The notes under the pieces: model-generated | Databases searched by the model: none | The model's input: the letters and a program-made list of their open reading frames with translations, nothing else | Told to the model about the DNA's origin: nothing | Shown here: one piece after another, positions 2,691 to 19,608 of the stretch | Layout of the letters: every line of letters begins with the position of its first letter | Position numbering within the stretch: position 1 is the first letter of the stretch | Program-made: the position numbers and the translations under genes | IMG/VR virus record: IMGVR_UViG_3300047377_000190 | Location: 1-20,131 of that record | DNA: 20,131 nt | DNA from: a virus | Reading direction: 5' to 3' (one strand)

Positions 2691-4891
2691 ATGATTTGCA
2701 AAAAGAAATTATGCGTGTTTTGGACTTGCATGAATTGGGCAAGCCTATTTATGCAAAGCCCGGCAAGGACGGCATCTCTCGCGCTGACTTTATACGCTCT
2801 GAGCCAGAGCCTCTTCGTGCGCCGCTACGTCAGGCAGAGCCACAGAGCCTAGAGAAAACTATGCAAGACATCCCGGCTGTTGCTGGCGGTATTGCTGGCG
2901 GCGTTGGCGTTGGTTTGGGTGAGGCGGCAGACTTGGGCATAGGGTTGTTGGAAGGCGCTTATAAGGCGCTAAACCCTGACGCCGGAGAAGGGCGCTTCCA
3001 AAGTTTTGTGTCTGGCTTGGCAGAGCAATTTGAAACTGGCTATGGCGAACAGGCGCGGTCTATTGTTATGGACATGGGCGAGAAGGCTGGGTTGTCACCA
3101 GAACAGCTAGACGTTATGGATGAGAGTATCACAGCCGGCAGCATGCTTAGTATTGGCGGCGCAACAAAGAAGGCGGCGCAAGCTGTGCCGGGCATGATGT
3201 CTAAGGCTGGTGACGGCATTCAAACGCTTGGCGACAGGGCTACAGCGCAACTTGCAGAAGCGCCGGGGCAGAAACTAATGTCTGGGCCGCCTATAGATGA
3301 TATCGTAAATAAAGGCTTTGCGGCTGCGGGTGATGCTGTCAAAAAAGCAAGGGCAAAGAAAAACATATTTGTCGGAGCGCCAAAGGGCATCGACACTAGG
3401 TCTAAGTTAAATACGCTGAGGCGCAATGTTGAAAAGTTAGCCATCGAAGGCGCAGACGCACGTTTTTGGTACGAGCGCAGCGGCAAGGCAATACTAGACG
3501 CCGTTGGCGGTGACAAGGCAGAGGCAGAAAAAATAGCGCAGATTGTGGCTATCACATCAGCCGGGACGCCAGTCAAGGCAAACTTTGATTTTGCTTTACA
3601 GGCTTATGCGCAACACAAAGCTGGCCAACCTATTATGACCGGCAGATTTCCAACAGCGATGAGTAAAAGAATTGAGCAAGTGCTAGGCGGTCAAGATTGG
3701 GAAGGTAGAAAAACAAATAACTTTTATGTGAACCTAATGCGCGTTGTAGACCCACAAAAGGTGCAGGGTGTAACAACAGACCTATGGATGATGCGGTCTT
3801 TCGGGTTTGACACTGACAACCCAACAGATGCGCAATATACATTTGTTGAAAGGGAAACAAACAGAATAGCAGACAGGTTGGAGTGGGAACCTCAACAGGC
3901 ACAGGCGGCAATCTGGGTAGCACAAAAAGCAAAAGAGGAAGGCACCGACATTGCTACATCTAAGTTTGACTATTCGGACGCCCTAGACCAAAACCTTGCC
4001 CAGATATCATGGGAGAGCATACCGGGCAGAACGTCATCACACATGCTGGAAATGTTTGATGCGCCTTACGAGGTGCAGCAAGAATATCATGTGGCTGTGT
4101 CTAAGGCGTTCCAAGATGATGATGGGTTTGACCTAGTCGCCAGAAGGCTTGGCATCCCAACACCGGGAGACTTTGAGGCGCCGGGTTACTTTGAGGGCAA
4201 AGTAAGCCCCGGCACACAATCCGAGCTTGTGGCGCCAAAACAATACAAGGTAGACCGTAAGGTAGAACCAGCCGCAATTGAGCTTATAGAGGCATATGCG
4301 GCTGTGCGTGGTATATTAATGAAACAAGACGGCGTTGGCTATCACAGGCCGTTCTATCAAACAACCAAAGCAGCCGGCAATGGCATAGAGGTGCGGGTAG
4401 GCAGAGCGTTCAGTGAGGCCGAAACAAAAAGGCTTGCTGATTTATTAAAGCAAGAGGCTGGCTTTGAGATAGCCCCTATTGGCGCATCTGGCGGGGTGCG
4501 CATAATTAACTTTGACCCTGACTTTGATAACAAAGAGTTTCAAAGGATTGCAAAAGGTGCTATAGATAAATTGGAGCTGGATGATGACGCGGATATGGAT
4601 GCCGTGTTGTTTGCCAGCCAGAATGGTCTTTTGGAAAATAATTGGAGTGCATCTAAAAATGGTGAGGAATATATCTCTGCGCTTGGCGCAAAAGGACGAC
4701 CCGATCTTCAGCGGAAGGTTCAAGATATCATCAACGAAGTCCAACCAAGGATCGATGAAATCGACAGCGACTTTTCAGAGCGATATGGGTTTACAAGAAA
4801 CGAACAAATTAACTCAAACTTCAGAAGAGCTGAAGAGCAAGTAACGCCGCCACAAATGTCTGAACAAGCGGAGGGTATTAACAATGGCTGA
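2687..4891 (+). CDS. Large internal virion protein with a DUF7178 / HhH-glycosylase-like domain
   Basis: A 734-residue protein in the ejection-protein cluster. Residues 60-220 are Gly/Ala-rich and amphipathic, with a glycine-rich hydrophobic stretch at 62-90 that could touch membrane. Residues 255-415 form a globular region with the landmarks of a phage domain I recognise as DUF7178-like: FWYERSGKAI (260-269), AITSAGTPVKANFDFA (288-303), RKTNNFYVNLM (341-351), VTTDLWMMRSFGF (362-374), and a Y...ETNRIADRL..EPQQAQAAIWVAQK segment (384-414). In mycobacteriophage homologues the same blocks read roughly as ALSP, K..NFY.NI, VTIDxH and P.Q.QAi.W.awR, and the fold is thought to be related to helix-hairpin-helix DNA glycosylases. 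The C-terminal 320 residues are unassigned. Start ATG at 2687 overlaps the previous stop. A virion role is inferred from context; the enzymatic relation is a pattern match from memory. Confidence 0.55.
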   Translation: MNDLQKEIMRVLDLHELGKPIYAKPGKDGISRADFIRSEPEPLRAPLRQAEPQSLEKTMQDIPAVAGGIAGGVGVGLGEAADLGIGLLEGAYKALNPDAGEGRFQSFVSGLAEQFETGYGEQARSIVMDMGEKAGLSPEQLDVMDESITAGSMLSIGGATKKAAQAVPGMMSKAGDGIQTLGDRATAQLAEAPGQKLMSGPPIDDIVNKGFAAAGDAVKKARAKKNIFVGAPKGIDTRSKLNTLRRNVEKLAIEGADARFWYERSGKAILDAVGGDKAEAEKIAQIVAITSAGTPVKANFDFALQAYAQHKAGQPIMTGRFPTAMSKRIEQVLGGQDWEGRKTNNFYVNLMRVVDPQKVQGVTTDLWMMRSFGFDTDNPTDAQYTFVERETNRIADRLEWEPQQAQAAIWVAQKAKEEGTDIATSKFDYSDALDQNLAQISWESIPGRTSSHMLEMFDAPYEVQQEYHVAVSKAFQDDDGFDLVARRLGIPTPGDFEAPGYFEGKVSPGTQSELVAPKQYKVDRKVEPAAIELIEAYAAVRGILMKQDGVGYHRPFYQTTKAAGNGIEVRVGRAFSEAETKRLADLLKQEAGFEIAPIGASGGVRIINFDPDFDNKEFQRIAKGAIDKLELDDDADMDAVLFASQNGLLENNWSASKNGEEYISALGAKGRPDLQRKVQDIINEVQPRIDEIDSDFSERYGFTRNEQINSNFRRAEEQVTPPQMSEQAEGINNG

Positions 4892-7886
4892 TCTGCTTGA
4901 GGAAAAAACAGAAGAAATGGTAGCTGGCGCACAGGCCAAGCAAGAGGCAACGTCTATTCTGCAAGAGGAACAGGCAGAGCAAAACTATGACCTGTTTGCT
5001 GATGAGCCTGTAGTACAGGAAACAGCGCTAGAGCCAGACCCGCAAGTGCAAGAGGCGCTTGTTGCAGGTATGGAAAGAGCGCAGATAGACACAGGTGAGC
5101 CGCAAGGCGTTGAAGTCGCAAGCGCCGGAGCCTTTAAAAAATTTATTGTGGAGCCTCTTGCTAAAAGAGTGGCAGAGGCAGAGAAGAAAGTTATTCCCGG
5201 TTTGCCTGATGAGCCTATCCAAGAGATAGGCGGTAGGTTTGTTATCCGTGAAATGCCAGAGGAAGAAATCGCCACAATAAACAACGCTATGGGCGGCGAC
5301 TACGTTAAGAGCCTAAACCTACCGGCCATATCCGAGGGCATGGGCGATGCTGATATGGCAGATTGGTTTGACAAGTTTAAGTCAGCAAACGCAGAGCTTA
5401 TCGAGGACGCACGCCGAGGCACGCTAAACTTAGACGCATTGATAGGTTTGGCTGAAGAAATGGGCGCGGATGAAATTACTGAACGCATTTTGCGCCGTAA
5501 AACTGGTGAAGCGCTAAACCCAGAGGAAATGGTTGGCGGCGTGTTTGCCGTGCGCTCTGCCTTTATAAAGACGCGGGAACTGTTTGAAGAGGCGCACAGT
5601 TTGCCGGAAGGTGTAGAAAAGCAATTAGCCTTTTCTAAGTGGGCGCGGATGCTGTCACTAACACAGCGCCTATCTATCAACGTATCAGGCGGCGGGTCAG
5701 AGGCGGCGCGTACTACATACGCTATGGGCGCGTTGCAAAAAACGCTAGACATGCCGAGCATACAAAATATAGCAGACGACTTTACCTCAATGCTTGGCCC
5801 AGAGGGCGCGGAAACGCTAGAGCATTTAGGCATTCTTTATACGGGTCTAAAAACCACCGCAAGTAAAAATCAGTTTTTGGCAAAGGCGGGTGGCGCGCTT
5901 GATCGTGGTATGGATGTAATTACTGAGATATGGATTAACTCGATTCTATCGTTGCCCGTAACTCACGCGGTTAACATACTTGGCAACACTTCATTTCAAG
6001 CCCAAAGAATTTTAGAAACATTTGTCGCTTCTGGCATTGGCACGGTGCGCTCATCAATTACCGGCAACATGGACAGGGTCAGGTTTAAGGAAGGCGCGGC
6101 ACAACTACAGGCTATAGGGGATAGCTGGATAGACGCCACCCTTGTTGCTGGCAAAACATTAAAAACAGAAATACCGGCAGATGGCGCGTCTAAAATAGAT
6201 GTGCGCCGCATGCAAGCTATTGGCAGCACGGGCGACTTAGGCGAGATAGCATCTATGTACAGAGAAGGCAACGTGCTTGCCGGGTTAACAAATACATTTG
6301 GCTCGTCTATGCGTTTAGGTGGGCGTTTCTTGCTTGCAGAAGATGCTTTCTTCAAGGGCATAGGCTATCGCATGGCATTGCGCCAAGAGGCAGAGATAGC
6401 CGGTGGCAACGCCTACGATGCTGCGATTGCAATGGGCAAGACGCGCGATGAGGCTGCCGCAATTGGCGCTAAACAAAAACACAATGTTCTTACAAACCCA
6501 ACAGAAACAATAATAAAAAGAGCGCAGAAATCTTCTGAGGTTGGCACATTCCAAGGCGACCTAGATGGGTGGCTTGGGTCTATCCAAGGTGGCATGTCTC
6601 ATCCCTTGGTTAAGATGCTAGTGCCTTTTTACAAGACCCCGGTAAATGTTATGAAGGCGGTTGGCGAGCGCTCCCCATTGATGCTGCTTAACCCAAACCT
6701 TTACAAAACAATTAAAGCGGGTGGCCGCGAGGCAGATATGGCGATGGCTAGGATTGCCACTGGTAGCGGCATTATGTACGCCTTTGGTTCATACGCGGCT
6801 GGGTCACAAAACGCGGATGAGGACATGATCATCATGGGCAGCGGCCCACCTTCGCCGCAAGAGAGACAGGCGCTAGCTCGCAAGGGCATACAGCCATATT
6901 CAATTAATATAAAGAACTACGACAAAAACGGGAACTGGGATGGTACATACACATCCACCACTTACTCTAGAATAGACCCGGTGTCTGGCATATTAGCTAT
7001 GGCGGCAGACTTTGCGTATTATGCAAACTACGAAGATGACACCAGCAAGATTGAGGCATTGGCAATGGCAAGTGTTGTTGGCATGCAAGAGTACATGATG
7101 CAAATGCCGTTGTTGCAAGGTGTGCAAGAGCTAACAAATATCCTCTCAACAAGAAACACAAAGCAACGCGCAGAAAAGTTAATAGAGTTTTTGGGGCGCA
7201 AGGCTACCGAAACAGGCTTGTCTGCCATTCCGGGCGTGTCGTCATTTAGCGCTGGCATTGAGCGCCAGATAGACCCAACCGTGCGGTCAACAATGCTGCC
7301 ATCAGAGGGGTTGTTTGGAGAAGACCCAACGCAGGGCAACGCTCTGACAAGGGGCTTTTACCAAGAGCTACAGCGCATGAAGGCGCGTAACCCGTTTTTC
7401 TCAGATGCGGTGGAGCCTATGCTAAACCTTTGGGCAGAGGAAATCCGCGCCGGTTCTGGTGAGCAATGGGAATTTTGGTCGCCGATTAGGGTTCAAGAAA
7501 CAAAATACTCACCTCTCGATGATGAAATACTAAGGCTTAAAAACGGCATCTCCATGCCCAACAAAAAACAGCACGGCATGTTGTTGAATGCACAGCAATA
7601 TAACCGCATGCTGCGAATTATGAACCACGCAGACTTTTTTGGTAATATGCCAGAAATTGAAGTAGATGGGGAAATGGTAAAAAACCCTGATTACAAGCAG
7701 GGGCAAACGCTAGCAGATGAGCTTTTGAACTTTATTCGCAGTGATGAGTATCAAGGCTATGAAGACGAAGTAAAGCACGAAGAGCTATCTAAAATAATAT
7801 CATCAAGAAGAAGAGAAGCTAGAGATGACCTTTTTGAAGAAGATGAGGTTTTGAAATACAGACTTTCACGACTTCAAGAACAGTAA
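4884..7886 (+). CDS. Very large internal virion protein (T7 gp16-like position, no transglycosylase domain)
   Basis: A 1000-residue protein, the largest in the window. Its acidic N-terminal 60 residues (EEKTEEM, EEQAEQ, many Glu/Gln) look disordered or coiled. The body is helical. Around residues 348-390 there is a W-I-N-S-I-L-S-L-P-V-T-H-A-V-N-I-L-G-N block of the 'W-x-n-x-L-L-S-x-P-x-T-H-x-x-N' type that recurs in large phage head or internal proteins. A second hydrophobic block, HPLVKMLVPFYKTPVNVMKA, lies near residues 573-592. It fills the place of T7 gp16 as the last and largest internal protein, but I see no soluble lytic transglycosylase motif, so any peptidoglycan-cleaving activity must lie elsewhere. 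Its ATG overlaps the stop of the previous gene by 8 bases (4884-4891), which implies coupled expression. The C-terminus is highly charged. Confidence 0.6.
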   Translation: MADLLEEKTEEMVAGAQAKQEATSILQEEQAEQNYDLFADEPVVQETALEPDPQVQEALVAGMERAQIDTGEPQGVEVASAGAFKKFIVEPLAKRVAEAEKKVIPGLPDEPIQEIGGRFVIREMPEEEIATINNAMGGDYVKSLNLPAISEGMGDADMADWFDKFKSANAELIEDARRGTLNLDALIGLAEEMGADEITERILRRKTGEALNPEEMVGGVFAVRSAFIKTRELFEEAHSLPEGVEKQLAFSKWARMLSLTQRLSINVSGGGSEAARTTYAMGALQKTLDMPSIQNIADDFTSMLGPEGAETLEHLGILYTGLKTTASKNQFLAKAGGALDRGMDVITEIWINSILSLPVTHAVNILGNTSFQAQRILETFVASGIGTVRSSITGNMDRVRFKEGAAQLQAIGDSWIDATLVAGKTLKTEIPADGASKIDVRRMQAIGSTGDLGEIASMYREGNVLAGLTNTFGSSMRLGGRFLLAEDAFFKGIGYRMALRQEAEIAGGNAYDAAIAMGKTRDEAAAIGAKQKHNVLTNPTETIIKRAQKSSEVGTFQGDLDGWLGSIQGGMSHPLVKMLVPFYKTPVNVMKAVGERSPLMLLNPNLYKTIKAGGREADMAMARIATGSGIMYAFGSYAAGSQNADEDMIIMGSGPPSPQERQALARKGIQPYSINIKNYDKNGNWDGTYTSTTYSRIDPVSGILAMAADFAYYANYEDDTSKIEALAMASVVGMQEYMMQMPLLQGVQELTNILSTRNTKQRAEKLIEFLGRKATETGLSAIPGVSSFSAGIERQIDPTVRSTMLPSEGLFGEDPTQGNALTRGFYQELQRMKARNPFFSDAVEPMLNLWAEEIRAGSGEQWEFWSPIRVQETKYSPLDDEILRLKNGISMPNKKQHGMLLNAQQYNRMLRIMNHADFFGNMPEIEVDGEMVKNPDYKQGQTLADELLNFIRSDEYQGYEDEVKHEELSKIISSRRREARDDLFEEDEVLKYRLSRLQEQ

Positions 7887-15074: not shown

Positions 15075-15278
15075 CACTATCTCCAGCGTGTGGCGCTGGC
15101 CGTAGGTTTTTCGCAATATGCCACGGTCGCACATGATTTCCACATGCTTTCCTATGGCTTGCTTGGAGACGTTCAGGGTAGCCGCTAGCTGTGTGTAGCT
15201 AGGAACGTACCCCTGCGCCTCAGATAGCGTCTGTATGGCGCTCAGAACGCGATGCTGGGCTGGTGTAATCCTATACAT
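15060..15278 (-). CDS. Small LexA-like winged-helix DNA-binding protein
   Basis: A 72-residue protein: MYRITPAQHRVLSAIQTL, then GYVPSYTQLAATLNVSKQAI with a clear helix-turn-helix (TQLAATLNVSKQAIGKHVEI), and a wing segment GILRKTYGQRHTLEIV. The pattern 'L-T-x-x-Q-x-x-V-L-x-x-I ... G-x-x-P-S-x-x-x-L-A-x-x-L-x-V-S' matches the DNA-binding domain of LexA and related MarR-type winged helices. There is no C-terminal peptidase, so it cannot self-cleave as LexA does. The ATG at 15278 is chosen over an upstream TTG because AAGGAG lies 7 bases before it. It overlaps the stop of the exonuclease gene by 8 bases and is the last gene of the leftward operon. It may repress or modulate a phage promoter; the target is unknown. 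Confidence 0.68.
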   Translation of the reverse strand: MYRITPAQHRVLSAIQTLSEAQGYVPSYTQLAATLNVSKQAIGKHVEIMCDRGILRKTYGQRHTLEIVKGAQ

Positions 15279-16239
15279 CGCCAAGCTCCTTCACGGTCAA
15301 AGCATTCTGACGCACGCGCATGGCTGGCTTTGCCGGCACAACCTTCTCTTGCGTAGCTTTCATGTTGCGCATGCCCCACTTAACGATAACCCTTTTGCCA
15401 TCCACAACGGTGTTTGCTTCTTCATGGTTGCCCATATAATCCTTGATGACCGTTTCCGCGTCAGCGATAATCTGGTCGCACTCTTTTTTTGCACGCTTCG
15501 CCTCAAGCAAAGCCTCGACAGCATCCTGAACTTCGCCGTCTGATACGTCCAACGGCTGTGCCACATCATCGACCCGGCTGTAGGCCACGTTGCCATCGGC
15601 TGGGTTCATCAGCGGATACCAGTCGATGTCTTTGCGGCGTTGCTCAAACTCTTCGACAGCCTGTGCAATGCGTGCCTGTACGCCAGCGTCAGCGTGGTAC
15701 AGGAAGATGCGCAGGGTAGACCCGCGATAGAGTACACACACCGCGCCCAAGTCTGCGCCGGCGCACATCATCTGCGCCTGTAGCTGTAGCACGCCGCGAT
15801 GTGGTGGCGGCACATCTTCTGGCGCTGCCTGTGTTGTCTTGCATTCCAGCAATAATTTTTCGCCCGTTAGCTGGATTGCGTTTGCAACGCCGGGGATGAT
15901 AATGCCCTGCGCGTAATCCTCTTTCACCATGCGCGTGCCTGTGGCCATGCCGTCCAGCGATGCCGCCATTGGCAGCTTGTCATGGAAGAACGCTTGCGCG
16001 AAGTCGTCTTCGACATCGACAAGGCCGAGGCGGCGGGATGCTTCTGCGATGATTGCACCCTCATGGATGTCGCCCCAGCGTGTAAGCTCGTTGCCTTCCC
16101 ACGGCTCCGGCTCTTTGCCAGCATCGCGGTCTATGAACTCCGCAAGCATTTCGTTTTGCGTTGCGTATGGTGATTGCCCCATAAGCTGCGCGATGCGTGA
16201 TGCTGATAGCATGTTGTCAGGCGTTAGTTTTCCGACCAT
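15271..16239 (-). CDS. YqaJ-like viral exonuclease (lambda-exonuclease type recombinase subunit)
   Basis: A 322-residue protein of the PD-(D/E)XK YqaJ family. SASRIAQLMGQSPYATQNEM (12-31) is the typical entry motif. It is followed by RWGDIHEGAI with Glu60, ASLDGM with Asp96, LLLECKTT with Glu132 and Lys134, and QLQAQMMC (152-159), which complete the active site. Family members degrade one strand from double-stranded ends and work with an annealing protein in phage recombination and replication. A C-terminal extension (about 235-322) contains a charged helix (LLEAKRAKKECDQIIADAE) and a small beta part, as in other phage YqaJ proteins. The ATG at 16239 is preferred: it forms TAATG with the upstream HNH stop and has GGGAG (16248-16252) 8 bases before it, whereas the ATG at 16254 has no RBS. 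No RecT/Beta partner is seen in the window. Confidence 0.83.
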   Translation of the reverse strand: MVGKLTPDNMLSASRIAQLMGQSPYATQNEMLAEFIDRDAGKEPEPWEGNELTRWGDIHEGAIIAEASRRLGLVDVEDDFAQAFFHDKLPMAASLDGMATGTRMVKEDYAQGIIIPGVANAIQLTGEKLLLECKTTQAAPEDVPPPHRGVLQLQAQMMCAGADLGAVCVLYRGSTLRIFLYHADAGVQARIAQAVEEFEQRRKDIDWYPLMNPADGNVAYSRVDDVAQPLDVSDGEVQDAVEALLEAKRAKKECDQIIADAETVIKDYMGNHEEANTVVDGKRVIVKWGMRNMKATQEKVVPAKPAMRVRQNALTVKELGDV

Positions 16240-16940
16240 TAGTTTGTCTCCCATTTGTTGGATTTAGATAGATTGTCTCTGGCGAGTATGACCCTTAAGT
16301 TTTCCGCGATATGCAGACCGCATACATTTTCCCCTTTCAAGGGTATGCCGTGATCGACATGATGCTGCACGCCTGTCATCTGGGTCATCGCATTGCGCTC
16401 TTTGTACTTAACAGCAATGGCGTTCTTGTCAGCCCAAATAGGTGTAGCCCTAGCCAGCCTTTCATCGCGCTCTTGGCGCTTCATGGAATTGTAAAGGCTA
16501 ACGCGGCGCTTGTTTTCTTGCTTCCATCTTCTTGATGAAGCCTGACTTGATTGCAAGTTTTTTTGATAATGCTCCCTGCGATAAAGCAAAGCGTAATCAC
16601 GATTTTGTTGATACCACTTTTTCCTTCTCTCCGCGCATGACTGCAAGTTGCTTGCATAGTATAGCTTAGAATAATCCTTTATCGCGTCAGCGTTTTTTTG
16701 CCTCCAATTCGCTGCGCGCTGCGTAACCAAATGATGGTTCTTTTGCCTATATTCAGCTTCGTACCGCAAGCGTTTTTCTCTGTGTTTTATCCGCATCTTT
16801 TTGGATTTATGTTTTCCACATTCTGAACATTGCCCGTCAACGGCTTGCCTCTCACAAACATGCCCATGCTTGCACGGCTTGCCAGTGAAGTATCGAGGCA
16901 ACCCCTTTTCCTGTGCCTCTTTGCGTGTGATGATTTCCAT
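16239..16940 (-). CDS. HNH homing-type endonuclease
   Basis: A 233-residue protein. The N-terminus carries GLPRYFTGKPCKHGHVCER and GQCSECGKHK, a Cys/His cluster (Cys23, His25/27, Cys38, Cys41) likely to bind zinc and common in phage-borne HNH enzymes. Residues 79-160 hold three loose repeats beginning NWRQKN, KWYQQN and RWKQEN, very rich in Lys, Arg and Gln, a probable DNA-contacting helical linker. The C-terminal HNH motif is clear: VQHHVDHGIPL (191-201), GLHIAENLRVI with Asn214, and N-L-S-K-S-N-K-W at 223-230. Free-standing enzymes of this kind cut related phage genomes lacking the gene and so spread it. Here it sits between a 40-residue membrane protein and the YqaJ exonuclease, and its stop overlaps the exonuclease ATG. 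A GGGGGG run in the preceding gene serves as RBS. Confidence 0.85.
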   Translation of the reverse strand: MEIITRKEAQEKGLPRYFTGKPCKHGHVCERQAVDGQCSECGKHKSKKMRIKHREKRLRYEAEYRQKNHHLVTQRAANWRQKNADAIKDYSKLYYASNLQSCAERRKKWYQQNRDYALLYRREHYQKNLQSSQASSRRWKQENKRRVSLYNSMKRQERDERLARATPIWADKNAIAVKYKERNAMTQMTGVQHHVDHGIPLKGENVCGLHIAENLRVILARDNLSKSNKWETN

Positions 16941-16941
16941 A

Positions 16942-17064
16942 TCAACCCCCCATAATATAAATTAAATTCCACCACGTATATTGTGGCCCGAAGATGTCCA
17001 CCCAGCCCATGACCCACAGGCTGAGTAGCGCATATGTAAACAACATTCCAGCAACTTTCTGCAT
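16942..17064 (-). CDS. 40-residue single-TM membrane protein
   Basis: A very small ORF between the recombinase and HNH genes. The ATG at 17064 follows an AAGGGG ribosome binding site 7 bases upstream; longer readings that extend into the recombinase gene are unlikely. The product starts MQKVAGMLFTYALLSLWVMG with one membrane span (about 5-22), then a Trp- and aromatic-rich segment with WVDIFG and YTWWNLIYIMGG. The aromatic C-terminus suggests an interfacial or second half-span. I do not recognise a family. Candidate roles include superinfection exclusion, a minor lysis effector or a host-membrane target. It is separated by only one base from the HNH start. Confidence 0.5.
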   Translation of the reverse strand: MQKVAGMLFTYALLSLWVMGWVDIFGPQYTWWNLIYIMGG

Positions 17065-17074
17065 GATATTCCCC

Positions 17075-17698
17075 TTATGCGTTGATGAGATTACGCACGC
17101 TAGATGCGTGCCACTGACCGCCCATTGCGGTCGGTATCTGCGCGTCATTGAGCGCGGATGCGATGGCGCGTAGGCTCTGACCAGCCTTGCGCAATGCGTT
17201 GATAATAGGCATAGCTTGCGGCGCTACCTGTGCGGTGGCGCTGGCGCGTTGCTTGCCGGTAACTGAACCACCCTTTGCAGGGTCAGGTGAGCCGAGCTTA
17301 ACGCCCCGGCGCTTTGCTGCGGCTAGCGCAGCCTTGGTGCGCTTACTGATGCGTCTGCCTTCCCATTCTGCAAAGACAGCGGCCATCTGCAAGAATGTGC
17401 GGTCTGCCTCTGGCATGTCGGCGCATGTGATAGGCACGCCAGCCTCAAGCAAGCCAGTGATGAAATGCACGTTACGAGACAGACGGTCGAGCTTGGCAAT
17501 AAGCAGTGTTGCGCCTATCTTCTTGGCGTGCGCCAGTGCCTTGGCTAGCTCCGGGCGGTCGGACTTCTTGCCGCTTTCTACTTCTGTGTATTCAGCGACA
17601 ATATCATAGTGCGCACATGCGTGCTTCTGTGCCTCAAGGCCAAGGCCGGACTGGCCCTGACGCTGAGTAGATACGCGGTAGTAGACGATGAATTTCAT
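17075..17698 (-). CDS. Small serine recombinase (resolvase/invertase family)
   Basis: A 207-residue recombinase. The catalytic domain starts with IVYYRVSTQRQGQSGLGLEA, giving Arg8 and the nucleophile Ser10. It continues with SGKKSDRPELAKAL, the AKLDRLSRNV motif (69-77) with Arg72 and Arg75, and EWEGRRISKRTKAAL (111-125), the start of the long E-helix used for dimerisation. A C-terminal helix-turn-helix region follows (ALRKAGQSLRAIASALNDAQ and QWHASSVRNLI). These enzymes join or invert DNA at two sites through a 5'-phosphoserine link. Length fits small resolvases/invertases or short phage integrases and lacks the large C-terminal domains of large serine integrases. The 3' neighbour starts 11 bases downstream and the upstream gene ends 12 bases away, so it is part of the leftward operon. 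Whether it integrates, resolves or inverts cannot be told; no crossover site is recognised. Confidence 0.85.
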   Translation of the reverse strand: MKFIVYYRVSTQRQGQSGLGLEAQKHACAHYDIVAEYTEVESGKKSDRPELAKALAHAKKIGATLLIAKLDRLSRNVHFITGLLEAGVPITCADMPEADRTFLQMAAVFAEWEGRRISKRTKAALAAAKRRGVKLGSPDPAKGGSVTGKQRASATAQVAPQAMPIINALRKAGQSLRAIASALNDAQIPTAMGGQWHASSVRNLINA

Positions 17699-18059: not shown

Positions 18060-18254
18060 ATGGCAACAACAAAACCAACATTATTGCGGCTCAGAACCAA
18101 GACAGTTTTGATGCTGAAAGAGGCGGTCGAACAGTCGGCGCATCGCTCGATGGCGTCACTGGCTGACGAAATACTGGCGCAAGAATTAGAAAAGCGTTTG
18201 ACCAAAGACGGGTCTGACCTAGACCGTGTGATAGCGGCGGCACGCAATGGTTAA
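18060..18254 (+). CDS. Ribbon-helix-helix (Arc/CopG-like) transcription regulator
   Basis: A 64-residue protein with the full RHH plan: a short beta strand (TLLRLRT, residues 7-13), helix A (KTVLMLKEAVEQSAHR, 14-29), a turn and helix B (MASLADEILAQELEKRL, 31-47), then a short tail. RHH proteins dimerise through the strand and use it to touch the major groove, usually binding tandem short operators and often regulating their own promoter. It is the first gene of the rightward operon and lies next to repeat arrays that suit such binding. The RBS is weak (AGGG about 7-10 bases before ATG), so the protein may be made in small amounts. Its stop overlaps the start of the nuclease gene by 8 bases. 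Confidence 0.72.
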   Translation: MATTKPTLLRLRTKTVLMLKEAVEQSAHRSMASLADEILAQELEKRLTKDGSDLDRVIAAARNG

Positions 18255-18684
18255 CTCTCGCAACAAGGGCGCATCGTTCGAGCGTGACGTGAAGAACAGG
18301 CTGCATGCGGAGCTTGGGCTGGAGTTCCGCCGGGTGCTAGACCAGTGGGCCGAGGCTGGCTTGCCTGACCTAACGTGCGAAGATGACGCGTTTCCGTTTG
18401 TGATAGAGTGCAAGCGTTACCGGCAGGGTAGCACGTTTGCCTCGCCCAGCCATTGGGATCAGGTTTGCGTGGCAGCGGAGAAGGCTGGCAAAATACCGGC
18501 GCTGGTCTATAAATTCGATAGACTGCCGGAGCGCTGGCGCGTGCCTATTGAGGCGCTGGCAATGCTAGCCACGTTTGAGCGCCAAATGGGTGACGGGTAT
18601 GACTGGAAATACGCAGTCGAAATGACGTTTAACGATTTCTGCATGGTTGCAAGGGAGTTGATGTGCAATGAAACTAGCGATTGA
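18247..18684 (+). CDS. PD-(D/E)XK nuclease, Holliday-junction-resolvase-like
   Basis: A 145-residue protein. The start NSRNKGASFERDVKNRL gives Glu12 on the first helix. AGLPDLTC gives Asp41, and FVIECKRYR gives Glu54-x-Lys56: together the classical E...PD...ExK active site. The overall look ('N-K-G-x-x-F-E-R-x-V-x-x-x-L ... G-x-P-D-L ... I-E-C-K') is that of Hjc-type and VRR-type resolvases found in phage replication modules. They cut four-way or branched DNA during recombination and packaging. The remaining part includes SHWDQVCVAAEKAGKIPALV, a helix plus strand common in this fold. It overlaps the RHH gene and is followed by an overlapping small ORF, so all appear to be in one transcript. 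A restriction-type role is possible but less likely. Confidence 0.72.
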   Translation: MVNSRNKGASFERDVKNRLHAELGLEFRRVLDQWAEAGLPDLTCEDDAFPFVIECKRYRQGSTFASPSHWDQVCVAAEKAGKIPALVYKFDRLPERWRVPIEALAMLATFERQMGDGYDWKYAVEMTFNDFCMVARELMCNETSD

Positions 18685-18868
18685 TATGAGCGTGGAAGAG
18701 TTCGCCGCGTATCTAAAGAAACAGCGTGAGGCGTTGTTTGACGCCAACGACCGGCACGATGTAAACAGTAAATGGCGCAACCCTAAATGGCGTAGCGCTG
18801 TGATATCTGCGCACACAGCACGCATTGCTATGAAGCGGCGTAGCTCAAACAGGCAGCCAAACAAATGA
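18668..18868 (+). CDS. 66-residue basic protein of unknown function
   Basis: The ORF starts inside the end of the nuclease gene (17-base overlap), with GGGAG about 10 bases before the ATG, and its TGA overlaps the methyltransferase ATG (ATGA at 18865-18868). The product begins MKLAIDMSVEEFAAYLKKQR, then KWRNPKWRSAVISAHTARIA and a basic tail MKRRSSNRQPNK. It is helical and positively charged, so it may bind nucleic acid or a partner protein. I do not recognise a family. The neat overlaps on both sides and the helical, evenly charged sequence favour a real gene. Confidence 0.55.
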   Translation: MKLAIDMSVEEFAAYLKKQREALFDANDRHDVNSKWRNPKWRSAVISAHTARIAMKRRSSNRQPNK

Positions 18869-19608
18869 TGCGTCATATAGATTTATGTTCGGGCATCGGT
18901 GGATTTGCGCTGGGGTTTGAATGGGCTGGCCTGTCAACGCCAGCCATGTTCTGCGACATTGAGCCGTGGTCGCGCAAGATATTAGCAAAGCATTGGCCTG
19001 ATGTGCCAATCGAAGAAGATGTAAAGGTGTTAGCAAATGAGCCAGAAAAAATCCCAGCCGGGGGACGAGATACAATTCTTACTGCCGGGTATCCATGTCA
19101 ACCATTCTCACAAGCCGGGAAGCGCCTCGGCGCGGAAGATGACCGCCACATCTGGCCGTACATCCGCGAGATTGTTGCACAAAAACGACCCGCTTGGTGC
19201 GTTTTCGAAAATGTTTATGGTCATGTCTCCATGGGTCTCGACCAAGTGCTATCTGACTTGGAAGCCGATGGCTACGCCACAAGGGCGTTTATTGTACCGG
19301 CTTGCGGTGTCGATGCCCCGCACAGACGAGATCGGGTCTGGATTGTGGCCCACCCCAACGGCATCAGACTACAAGGGTGCGCCGAAGAACCGATACAGAG
19401 GCTCACCCACCAGCCACGGCAATCTGTCAGAGGTGGCAAGGGAAACCCCACATTCTGGTCAGCTGAACCCAACGTGGGTAGAGTGGCTCATGGGATACCC
19501 AACAGAGTGGACAGACTTAAAGGATTAGGCAATGCGATCGTGCCAAGGATTGCGATGCAAATAGGGATTGCCATACGGCAATGCGAGGCCAGCGCAACTG
19601 GTCAGTAA
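18865..19608 (+). CDS. DNA cytosine-5 methyltransferase (phage Dcm type)
   Basis: A 247-residue m5C methyltransferase with the expected motifs in order: motif I IDLCSGIGGFALGFEWAG (5-22) for SAM binding; motif IV GYPCQPFSQAGKR (75-87) with the catalytic Cys78; motif VI FENV (114-117); motif VIII PHRRDRVWIVA (152-162); motif IX RVAHGIPNRVDRLKGLGNAI (206-225); and the motif X helix after it. The segment between VIII and IX, the target-recognition region, is only about 40 residues, so the enzyme is among the short phage forms and its target site cannot be predicted. No partner restriction endonuclease is seen, which suggests protection of phage DNA from host restriction. It overlaps the preceding gene by 4 bases. 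Another long ORF runs inside it in the +2 frame (19037-19528) and also looks like a conserved protein. Confidence 0.9.
   Translation: MMRHIDLCSGIGGFALGFEWAGLSTPAMFCDIEPWSRKILAKHWPDVPIEEDVKVLANEPEKIPAGGRDTILTAGYPCQPFSQAGKRLGAEDDRHIWPYIREIVAQKRPAWCVFENVYGHVSMGLDQVLSDLEADGYATRAFIVPACGVDAPHRRDRVWIVAHPNGIRLQGCAEEPIQRLTHQPRQSVRGGKGNPTFWSAEPNVGRVAHGIPNRVDRLKGLGNAIVPRIAMQIGIAIRQCEASATGQ
19037..19528 (+). CDS. Alternate-frame ORF inside the methyltransferase gene (possible overprinted gene)
   Basis: A 163-codon ORF entirely inside the Dcm gene, in the next reading frame on the same strand. It has ATG at 19037 with AAAGGTG about 8 bases upstream, a reasonable RBS. The product contains KMTATSGRTSARLL (34-47), STKCYLTWKPMATPQGRLLY (68-87), SMPRTDEIGSGLWPTPTASD (91-110), GNLSEV, and LNPTWVEWLMGYPTEWTDL (143-161). 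These blocks match, from memory, a group of phage and prophage proteins often annotated next to or as part of cytosine methyltransferases. The same DNA encodes Dcm motifs VI, VIII and IX, so conservation in this frame could follow partly from constraint on the other. Whether it is translated is open. It could be a true overlapping gene, a widespread annotation shadow, or one partner of a frameshift product. Confidence 0.4.
   Translation: MSQKKSQPGDEIQFLLPGIHVNHSHKPGSASARKMTATSGRTSARLLHKNDPLGAFSKMFMVMSPWVSTKCYLTWKPMATPQGRLLYRLAVSMPRTDEIGSGLWPTPTASDYKGAPKNRYRGSPTSHGNLSEVARETPHSGQLNPTWVEWLMGYPTEWTDLKD

Follow-up and report, generated by a model that had tools for sequence, protein, structure and literature searches.

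Near the right end of the window, as we term the whole 20,131-base viral stretch analyzed here (IMG/VR record IMGVR_UViG_3300047377_000190, positions 1 to 20,131), lies a C5-cytosine DNA methyltransferase (Dcm) locus in which two open reading frames (ORFs) share the same bases. The longer of these, alpha, has 247 codons, and the shorter, beta, with 163 codons, is nested entirely within it, in the +1 frame. The computational analysis shows that beta is protein-coding, that it carries methyltransferase motif IX, and that alpha is without a small domain of its own. We therefore consider it highly likely that this one stretch of DNA specifies a two-chain C5-cytosine methyltransferase, with beta supplying the small domain. 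The original prediction, made from the letters alone, had placed such an ORF with its own ATG and an upstream AAAGGTG entirely inside the Dcm gene, and both its coordinates (19037-19528 in 18865-19608, +1) and the three sequence blocks quoted from it are as claimed. It had left two alternatives, either a second product made by overprinting or a set of database proteins arising from conserved Dcm codons read in the wrong frame; each refutation test that was run favored the second product.

A second coding frame within the methyltransferase gene

Relatives of the locus were fetched from IMG/VR in two rounds, one with beta and the other with alpha alone as the query, and were supplemented with annotated phages. 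Both frames are open in 166 of 166 loci, with beta always in +1. Upon removal of duplicates, the beta frame is open in all 110 distinct loci, including the 33 of 33 that were fetched by the alpha query only, and the +2 frame is open in none of the 110. As opposed to this, synonymous-codon shuffles within each gene yield an expectation of 0.1 open loci in 110, with a mean of 5.8 stops per shuffled locus. Furthermore, beta matches PHROG_1008, a family annotated as 'DNA methyltransferase' (2.3e-30; best stretch, residues 2-123). The claim that the frame is no random shadow is thus borne out, as is the proposed check that it should stay free of stops in relatives more often than in simulations. 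The signals for its translation are likewise conserved: the position of the beta start is occupied by ATG in 79, GTG in 17 and TTG in 4 of the distinct loci (none in 10), and 91 of the 100 start-bearing loci have a Shine-Dalgarno-like 5-mer upstream of it. The alpha codons that overlie these signals depart from the usage of the gene, with Lys53 encoded by AAG in 86/90 cases (47% gene-wide), Asn57 by AAT in 66/67 (53% gene-wide) and Ser57 by AGT in 16/16 (19% gene-wide), which suggests that the alpha codons bend to preserve the start and Shine-Dalgarno site of beta.

Given that beta is in the +1 frame, alpha codon positions 1, 2 and 3 are beta positions 3, 1 and 2, respectively. We determined the substitution rates at the three alpha positions in 40 disjoint pairs; this phase test counts substitutions singly and, in the variable region, relies on pairwise alignment, with only in-phase aligned blocks of at least 12 bases being used. 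The rates are 0.114/0.052/0.322 before beta and 0.099/0.073/0.328 after it. Where beta overlaps motifs IV-VIII they are 0.107/0.045/0.145, i.e. change at the alpha third position falls to 0.45 of the alpha-only level (95% confidence interval 0.39-0.52), indicating that both frames share the constraint there. Further downstream the rates become 0.238/0.111/0.113 in the variable region and 0.162/0.067/0.089 in the motif IX region, and the ratio of alpha position 1 to position 3 reaches 2.1 (1.7-2.7) and 1.84 (1.32-2.64), respectively, as against 0.35 before the overlap. Hence, downstream of motif VIII and as far as beta extends, substitutions are fastest at the third position of beta, implying that beta is the selected protein in this part and alpha mostly a passenger. 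The original prediction had proposed a comparison of synonymous constraint in and before the overlap; it reveals not just the anticipated depression but also this switch of the fastest phase to the alternate frame. The pattern is present at three divergence levels. In a distant clade retrieved with a different query, the motif IX signature appears again (alpha position 1, 0.303; position 3, 0.135; 29 pairs) and 58 of the 58 loci examined are open from motif VIII to IX; the variable region of this clade displays little phase contrast (0.41/0.35/0.36).

These observations bear on two explanations that do without a second protein. First, beta might be a shadow, open and conserved solely through the underlying Dcm codons, and the overlap does span the conserved motifs IV-VIII. 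However, such a shadow accords neither with the stops that accumulate in the synonymous shuffles nor with start and Shine-Dalgarno codons fixed against codon usage, and the fastest phase moves to the beta third position where alpha is not conserved, and does so again in the motif IX block of the distant clade. Moreover, a beta block is found in frame in single-chain relatives (see below). Judging by the phase test, we regard the shadow as refuted as the main explanation and accord it only a very small probability. Second, selection on RNA or DNA structure could depress synonymous change in the overlap, as is seen. Yet the depression is tied to codon phase, with a flip to the third position of beta, and selection for structure would preserve neither the openness of a frame nor a start codon, making this the least credible of the explanations considered.

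Partition of the enzyme between the two chains

Alpha matches PHROG_363 (6e-69) and the PF00145 profile (3.6e-34), the latter only over residues 2-174, and the alignment of its relatives (A6) contains invariant PC, ENV, RxR and GN signatures. Since its catalytic large domain carries motifs I, IV, VI, VIII and X, alpha qualifies as a C5-cytosine DNA methyltransferase. An AlphaFold2 (AF2) model built on a 47-sequence alignment is largely confident over the large domain (block means of the predicted local distance difference test, pLDDT, of 73-97 for residues 1-170, except for 51 at 81-90, and 80-97 over most of residues 1-160) and in a helix at 226-245 adjoining motif X (pLDDT 95 at 231-240). 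In contrast, the pLDDT is below 50 at residues 174-209, where the small domain would be expected. A Foldseek comparison of the model with M.HhaI recovers 175 columns (TMq 0.61, 28% identity, E 6.6e-13), a length that appears to fit the large domain rather than the whole 327-residue enzyme. Accordingly, alpha is predicted to have no small domain of its own: neither the recognition domain nor motif IX is found in this chain, for the Pfam match stops at residue 174, residues 174-209 are disordered in the model, and motif IX is in the +1 frame.

The identification of the beta block LNPTWVEWLMGYP as motif IX comes from single-chain relatives, in which the same block sits in frame just before motif X: it occurs as LNPDWVEWLMGYPISWT...LGNSVVP in L192 and as LNPAFPEWMMGWPTGW...IGNGVVP in the WillSterrel enzyme (L207), and those of SchottB (L209) and Papez (L197) likewise have it there. 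PF00145 spans the whole L192 chain (residues 3-334 to profile positions 2-322), and the last 60 residues of this chain alone match profile positions 277-322 (E 0.006). As for RVDRLKGLGNAIVP in alpha, it is motif X (LGNAIVP) and not IX. Thus, of the motif names originally given to the Dcm frame, FENV (VI) and PHRRDRVWIV (VIII) stand, whereas RVDRLKGLGN, taken for motif IX, is X, with IX being encoded by the other frame. The homologs free of a nested overlap that had been called for also exist. In phage Alma the catalytic part (gp83) and the part with the target-recognition domain and motifs IX and X (gp82) are separate genes with a 50-nt overlap, and gp82 matches PHROG_1008 at 3e-68, as does the C-terminal half of the single-chain WillSterrel enzyme at 1e-57.

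Within the N-terminal part of beta, AF2 predicts a hairpin with strands at residues 72-79 and 85-92 (pLDDT about 80) in which W75 and L89 are invariant; further on, RTDEIGSGLW is the beta reading of about the same bases as alpha motif VIII. The middle of beta consists of one (in the window) to five W[PA]TPxAxD cassettes, each roughly 25-45 residues long with a few longer. We found 19 pairs of cassettes that are at least 75% identical even though their backbones are at most 70% identical, and 187 pairs of loci with backbones at least 85% identical and last cassettes less than 50% identical. The cassettes thus move between backbones, which is typical of recognition domains, and beta very probably carries a DNA-recognition part with no counterpart in alpha. 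The original prediction had the recognition segment of Dcm coinciding with the WPTPTA part of the other frame; the overlap is real, and the phase test points to the alternate frame as what encodes the segment rather than to mere coincidence.

Two explanations accept some form of beta and assign it differently. A programmed +1 frameshift near motif VIII could produce one chain joining motifs I-VIII to the cassette and motif IX, a notion to which the existence of single-chain relatives lends some support. Yet it leaves unexplained the conserved start codon and Shine-Dalgarno site, as well as the constraint on beta, which sets in about 100 codons upstream of motif VIII although a shift as late as this would have no use for it; moreover, the fused product would be without motif X. 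We consider such frameshifting improbable. Alternatively, beta might be a genuine protein that serves some other function, for instance in anti-restriction or regulation, and not a methyltransferase subunit, and on its own it indeed has no recognizable fold or Pfam match. Against this, L192, L207, L209 and L197 have motif IX joined in frame to the catalytic part, alpha is without a small domain of its own, and in the loci examined beta was not found apart from an alpha beside or around it; this is, to our minds, somewhat less probable still than frameshifting.

Several observations nevertheless weigh against this two-chain reading. Profile and sequence searches of Pfam, NCBIfam and the PDB returned no match to beta, the AF2 model of beta in isolation is poor (pLDDT 61; predicted template modeling score, pTM, 0.40), and a Foldseek search with that model gave no fold match. 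A weak model of the isolated chain might fit a subunit that folds on its partner, yet proves nothing. Some alpha residues near motif IX in the passenger stretch are also conserved (e.g. W198, R206 and R217), implying that alpha may not be a pure passenger there. Finally, the putative recognition role of the cassettes is argued from their position, variability and swapping.

Some in-frame relatives also possess +1 ORFs. L192 (1083-2114), L216, L217 and L218 have motifs IX and X in the alpha frame, yet display a +1 ORF of 174-179 residues with SGMMxxGxxYxLP and LLPTPxASD modules and without motif IX, which is possibly a recognition-only partner. In the actinophage loci L197 (1555-1875), L207 (1553-2083) and L209 (1354-2103), where IX and X are in frame, a +1 ORF resembles the N-terminal part of beta; its openness is weak evidence due to the high G+C content, and these ORFs could be relics or shadows.

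Distribution, annotation and genomic context

Among 274 fetched loci that have motifs I-VIII in a single ORF, 231 carry motif IX in the +1 frame, 10 in frame and none in +2, and in 33 it was not found by pattern. Since these loci were picked as relatives and include duplicate contigs, the proportion is not to be taken as the prevalence among all phage methyltransferases. The set covers phages of Paenibacillus, Lacticaseibacillus and Mycobacterium, uncultured phages and a large number of bacterial assemblies. The nested arrangement is thus shared by hundreds of phage and bacterial relatives. Nested pairs also occur at gene 58 of N15 and in K1ind1, and seven enterobacterial plasmid records contain the N15-type beta at 51-82% identity and 99-100% coverage of its length, each with a single methyltransferase annotated at this locus. 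In a tree of the motif I-VIII region the nested loci are scattered throughout, and the in-frame state requires three changes (in actinophages, the L192 group and L168), such that some in-frame forms look secondary. L168 itself, at 1200-2248 of a Clostridia contig, keeps motif IX in the alpha frame but has X in another; it represents either a third arrangement or a broken gene. Most annotations that we checked list alpha only (e.g. the C72C1 and R23.9 records), or give beta as a hypothetical protein or a second methyltransferase without a role.

The features of the locus in the window are collected in Table 1. Its upstream neighbor (18247-18684) encodes a PDDEXK nuclease (PF24608, 5e-16; PHROG RusA-like resolvase, 8.5e-17), and this gene thus looks like one for a resolvase, not like an evident restriction partner. 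On the minus strand, opposite to the methyltransferase, 15271-17698 encodes a RecE-like exonuclease (15271-16254), an endonuclease VII-like protein (16239-16940) and a serine recombinase related to DNA invertases (17075-17698). Farther away, a 1000-residue protein (4884-7886) matches an internal virion protein family (PHROG_6651, 1.9e-23).

Table 1. Features of the nested methyltransferase locus in the window
Feature	Position	Strand	Basis or remark
Alpha chain, C5-cytosine methyltransferase, 247 aa, motifs I-VIII and X	18865..19608	+	PF00145, PHROG_363, AF2, Foldseek
AAAGGTG, Shine-Dalgarno-like site for beta, embedded in alpha codons	19023..19029	+	7 nt before beta ATG
Beta chain, ORF in +1 frame, 163 aa, ATG start	19037..19528	+	Wholly inside alpha ORF
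Alpha motif IV (PCQ, catalytic Cys78)	19093..19101	+	P77 and C78 invariant in A6
Alpha motif VI (ENV)	19207..19215	+	Invariant in A6
Beta residues 72-92 (YLTWKPMATPQGRLLYRLAVS), predicted hairpin, overprinting alpha between motifs VI and VIII	19250..19312	+	AF2
Alpha motif VIII (PHRRDRVWIV)	19318..19347	+	Sequence; both frames constrained here
Putative beta recognition cassette, single W[PA]TPxAxD module	19346..19459	+	Cassette counts, swapping, substitution phase
Alpha residues 174-209, probable passenger stretch, predicted disordered	19384..19491	+	AF2 pLDDT <50; phase flip
Beta motif IX (LNPTWVEWLMGYP)	19463..19501	+	In frame just before X in L192, L207, L209, L197
Alpha motif X (GLGNAIVP), beginning at beta stop	19522..19545	+	L221, G222, N223, P227 invariant in A6
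Beta stop codon TAG	19526-19528	+	Sequence

The proposed enzyme and comparison with known systems

We posit that alpha would provide catalysis and cofactor binding through its large domain with motifs I-VIII, to be rejoined via the motif X helix, while its stretch between VIII and X would be mostly a passenger, kept open so that the ribosome reaches motif X. Beta would be initiated at its own internal ATG (19037) from the Shine-Dalgarno site in the +1 frame, and would supply the small domain, made up of one swappable cassette and motif IX preceded by an N-terminal region whose codons overlap alpha motifs IV-VIII. Alpha and beta are envisaged as assembling into a heterodimer that acts as one enzyme and would methylate a target defined by the cassette; this methylation would most likely shield the phage DNA from host restriction.

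More broadly, we lean toward the view that nested two-chain C5 methyltransferases, far from being peculiar to a single restriction system, are how the enzymes of a large phage and prophage family are usually built, with the cassettes being shuffled in beta and the other frame serving as a bridge to motif X. Annotations that list only alpha, or give beta no role, would then miss the specificity-determining half of the enzyme, and target predictions for such phage enzymes would have been made from a chain that is probably without the recognition domain. Since in-frame, split and nested relatives are all extant, and the overlap is conserved and measurable, both the origin of the interlocked frames and the evolution of specificity within them become testable. 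These proteins would also constitute natural modular two-chain methyltransferases, a kind otherwise made artificially by splitting enzymes.

The closest parallel is M.EcoHK31I, whose smaller chain is encoded inside the gene for the larger one in another frame, just as the small chain of the window (19037-19528) is inside 18865-19608 in +1. M.EcoHK31I, which belongs to a restriction-modification system, differs in this from the locus in the window, where no partner endonuclease was recognized beside the gene. According to PMC3404938, this two-polypeptide C5 methyltransferase (target YGGCCR; Lee, Kam and Shaw, 1995) has motifs I-VIII and X in one chain and IX in the other, a partition that, as far as this published description goes, is the same as that in the window. 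The same paper states that its recognition domain was predicted in the larger chain, unlike in the window, where the substitution pattern places it in beta as swappable cassettes (1-5 in relatives). This predicted large-chain location deserves re-examination, and, if nesting is indeed the usual design, M.EcoHK31I too would have its recognition domain in the small subunit that is read out of frame.

M.AquI is a two-subunit C5 methyltransferase, the small subunit of which carries half of the variable region together with motifs IX and X (PMC3404938). It resembles the window in splitting the catalytic and recognition parts over two polypeptides; however, in the window motif X is in alpha, and beta stops where X begins (19528). 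The Alma gp83/gp82 split resembles M.AquI, whereas the window does not. The same nested pair as in the window is formed by gp62/gp63 of the Paenibacillus larvae phage Lily, in which gp63 is 42.5% identical to beta and annotated 'g62 internal gene'; for this pair we found annotation only, with no analysis of its role or constraint. The single-chain M.HhaI and M.HaeIII share with alpha the large domain and motifs I-VIII and X but, unlike alpha, also contain the recognition domain and motif IX within their one chain. Lastly, phage methylase genes of the ShiLan type contain an out-of-frame HNH endonuclease (PMC11855218), and hence they too harbor a second hidden frame. However, that HNH is an inserted homing endonuclease with a scattered distribution, whereas beta would be a part of the methyltransferase itself, conserved across its relatives.
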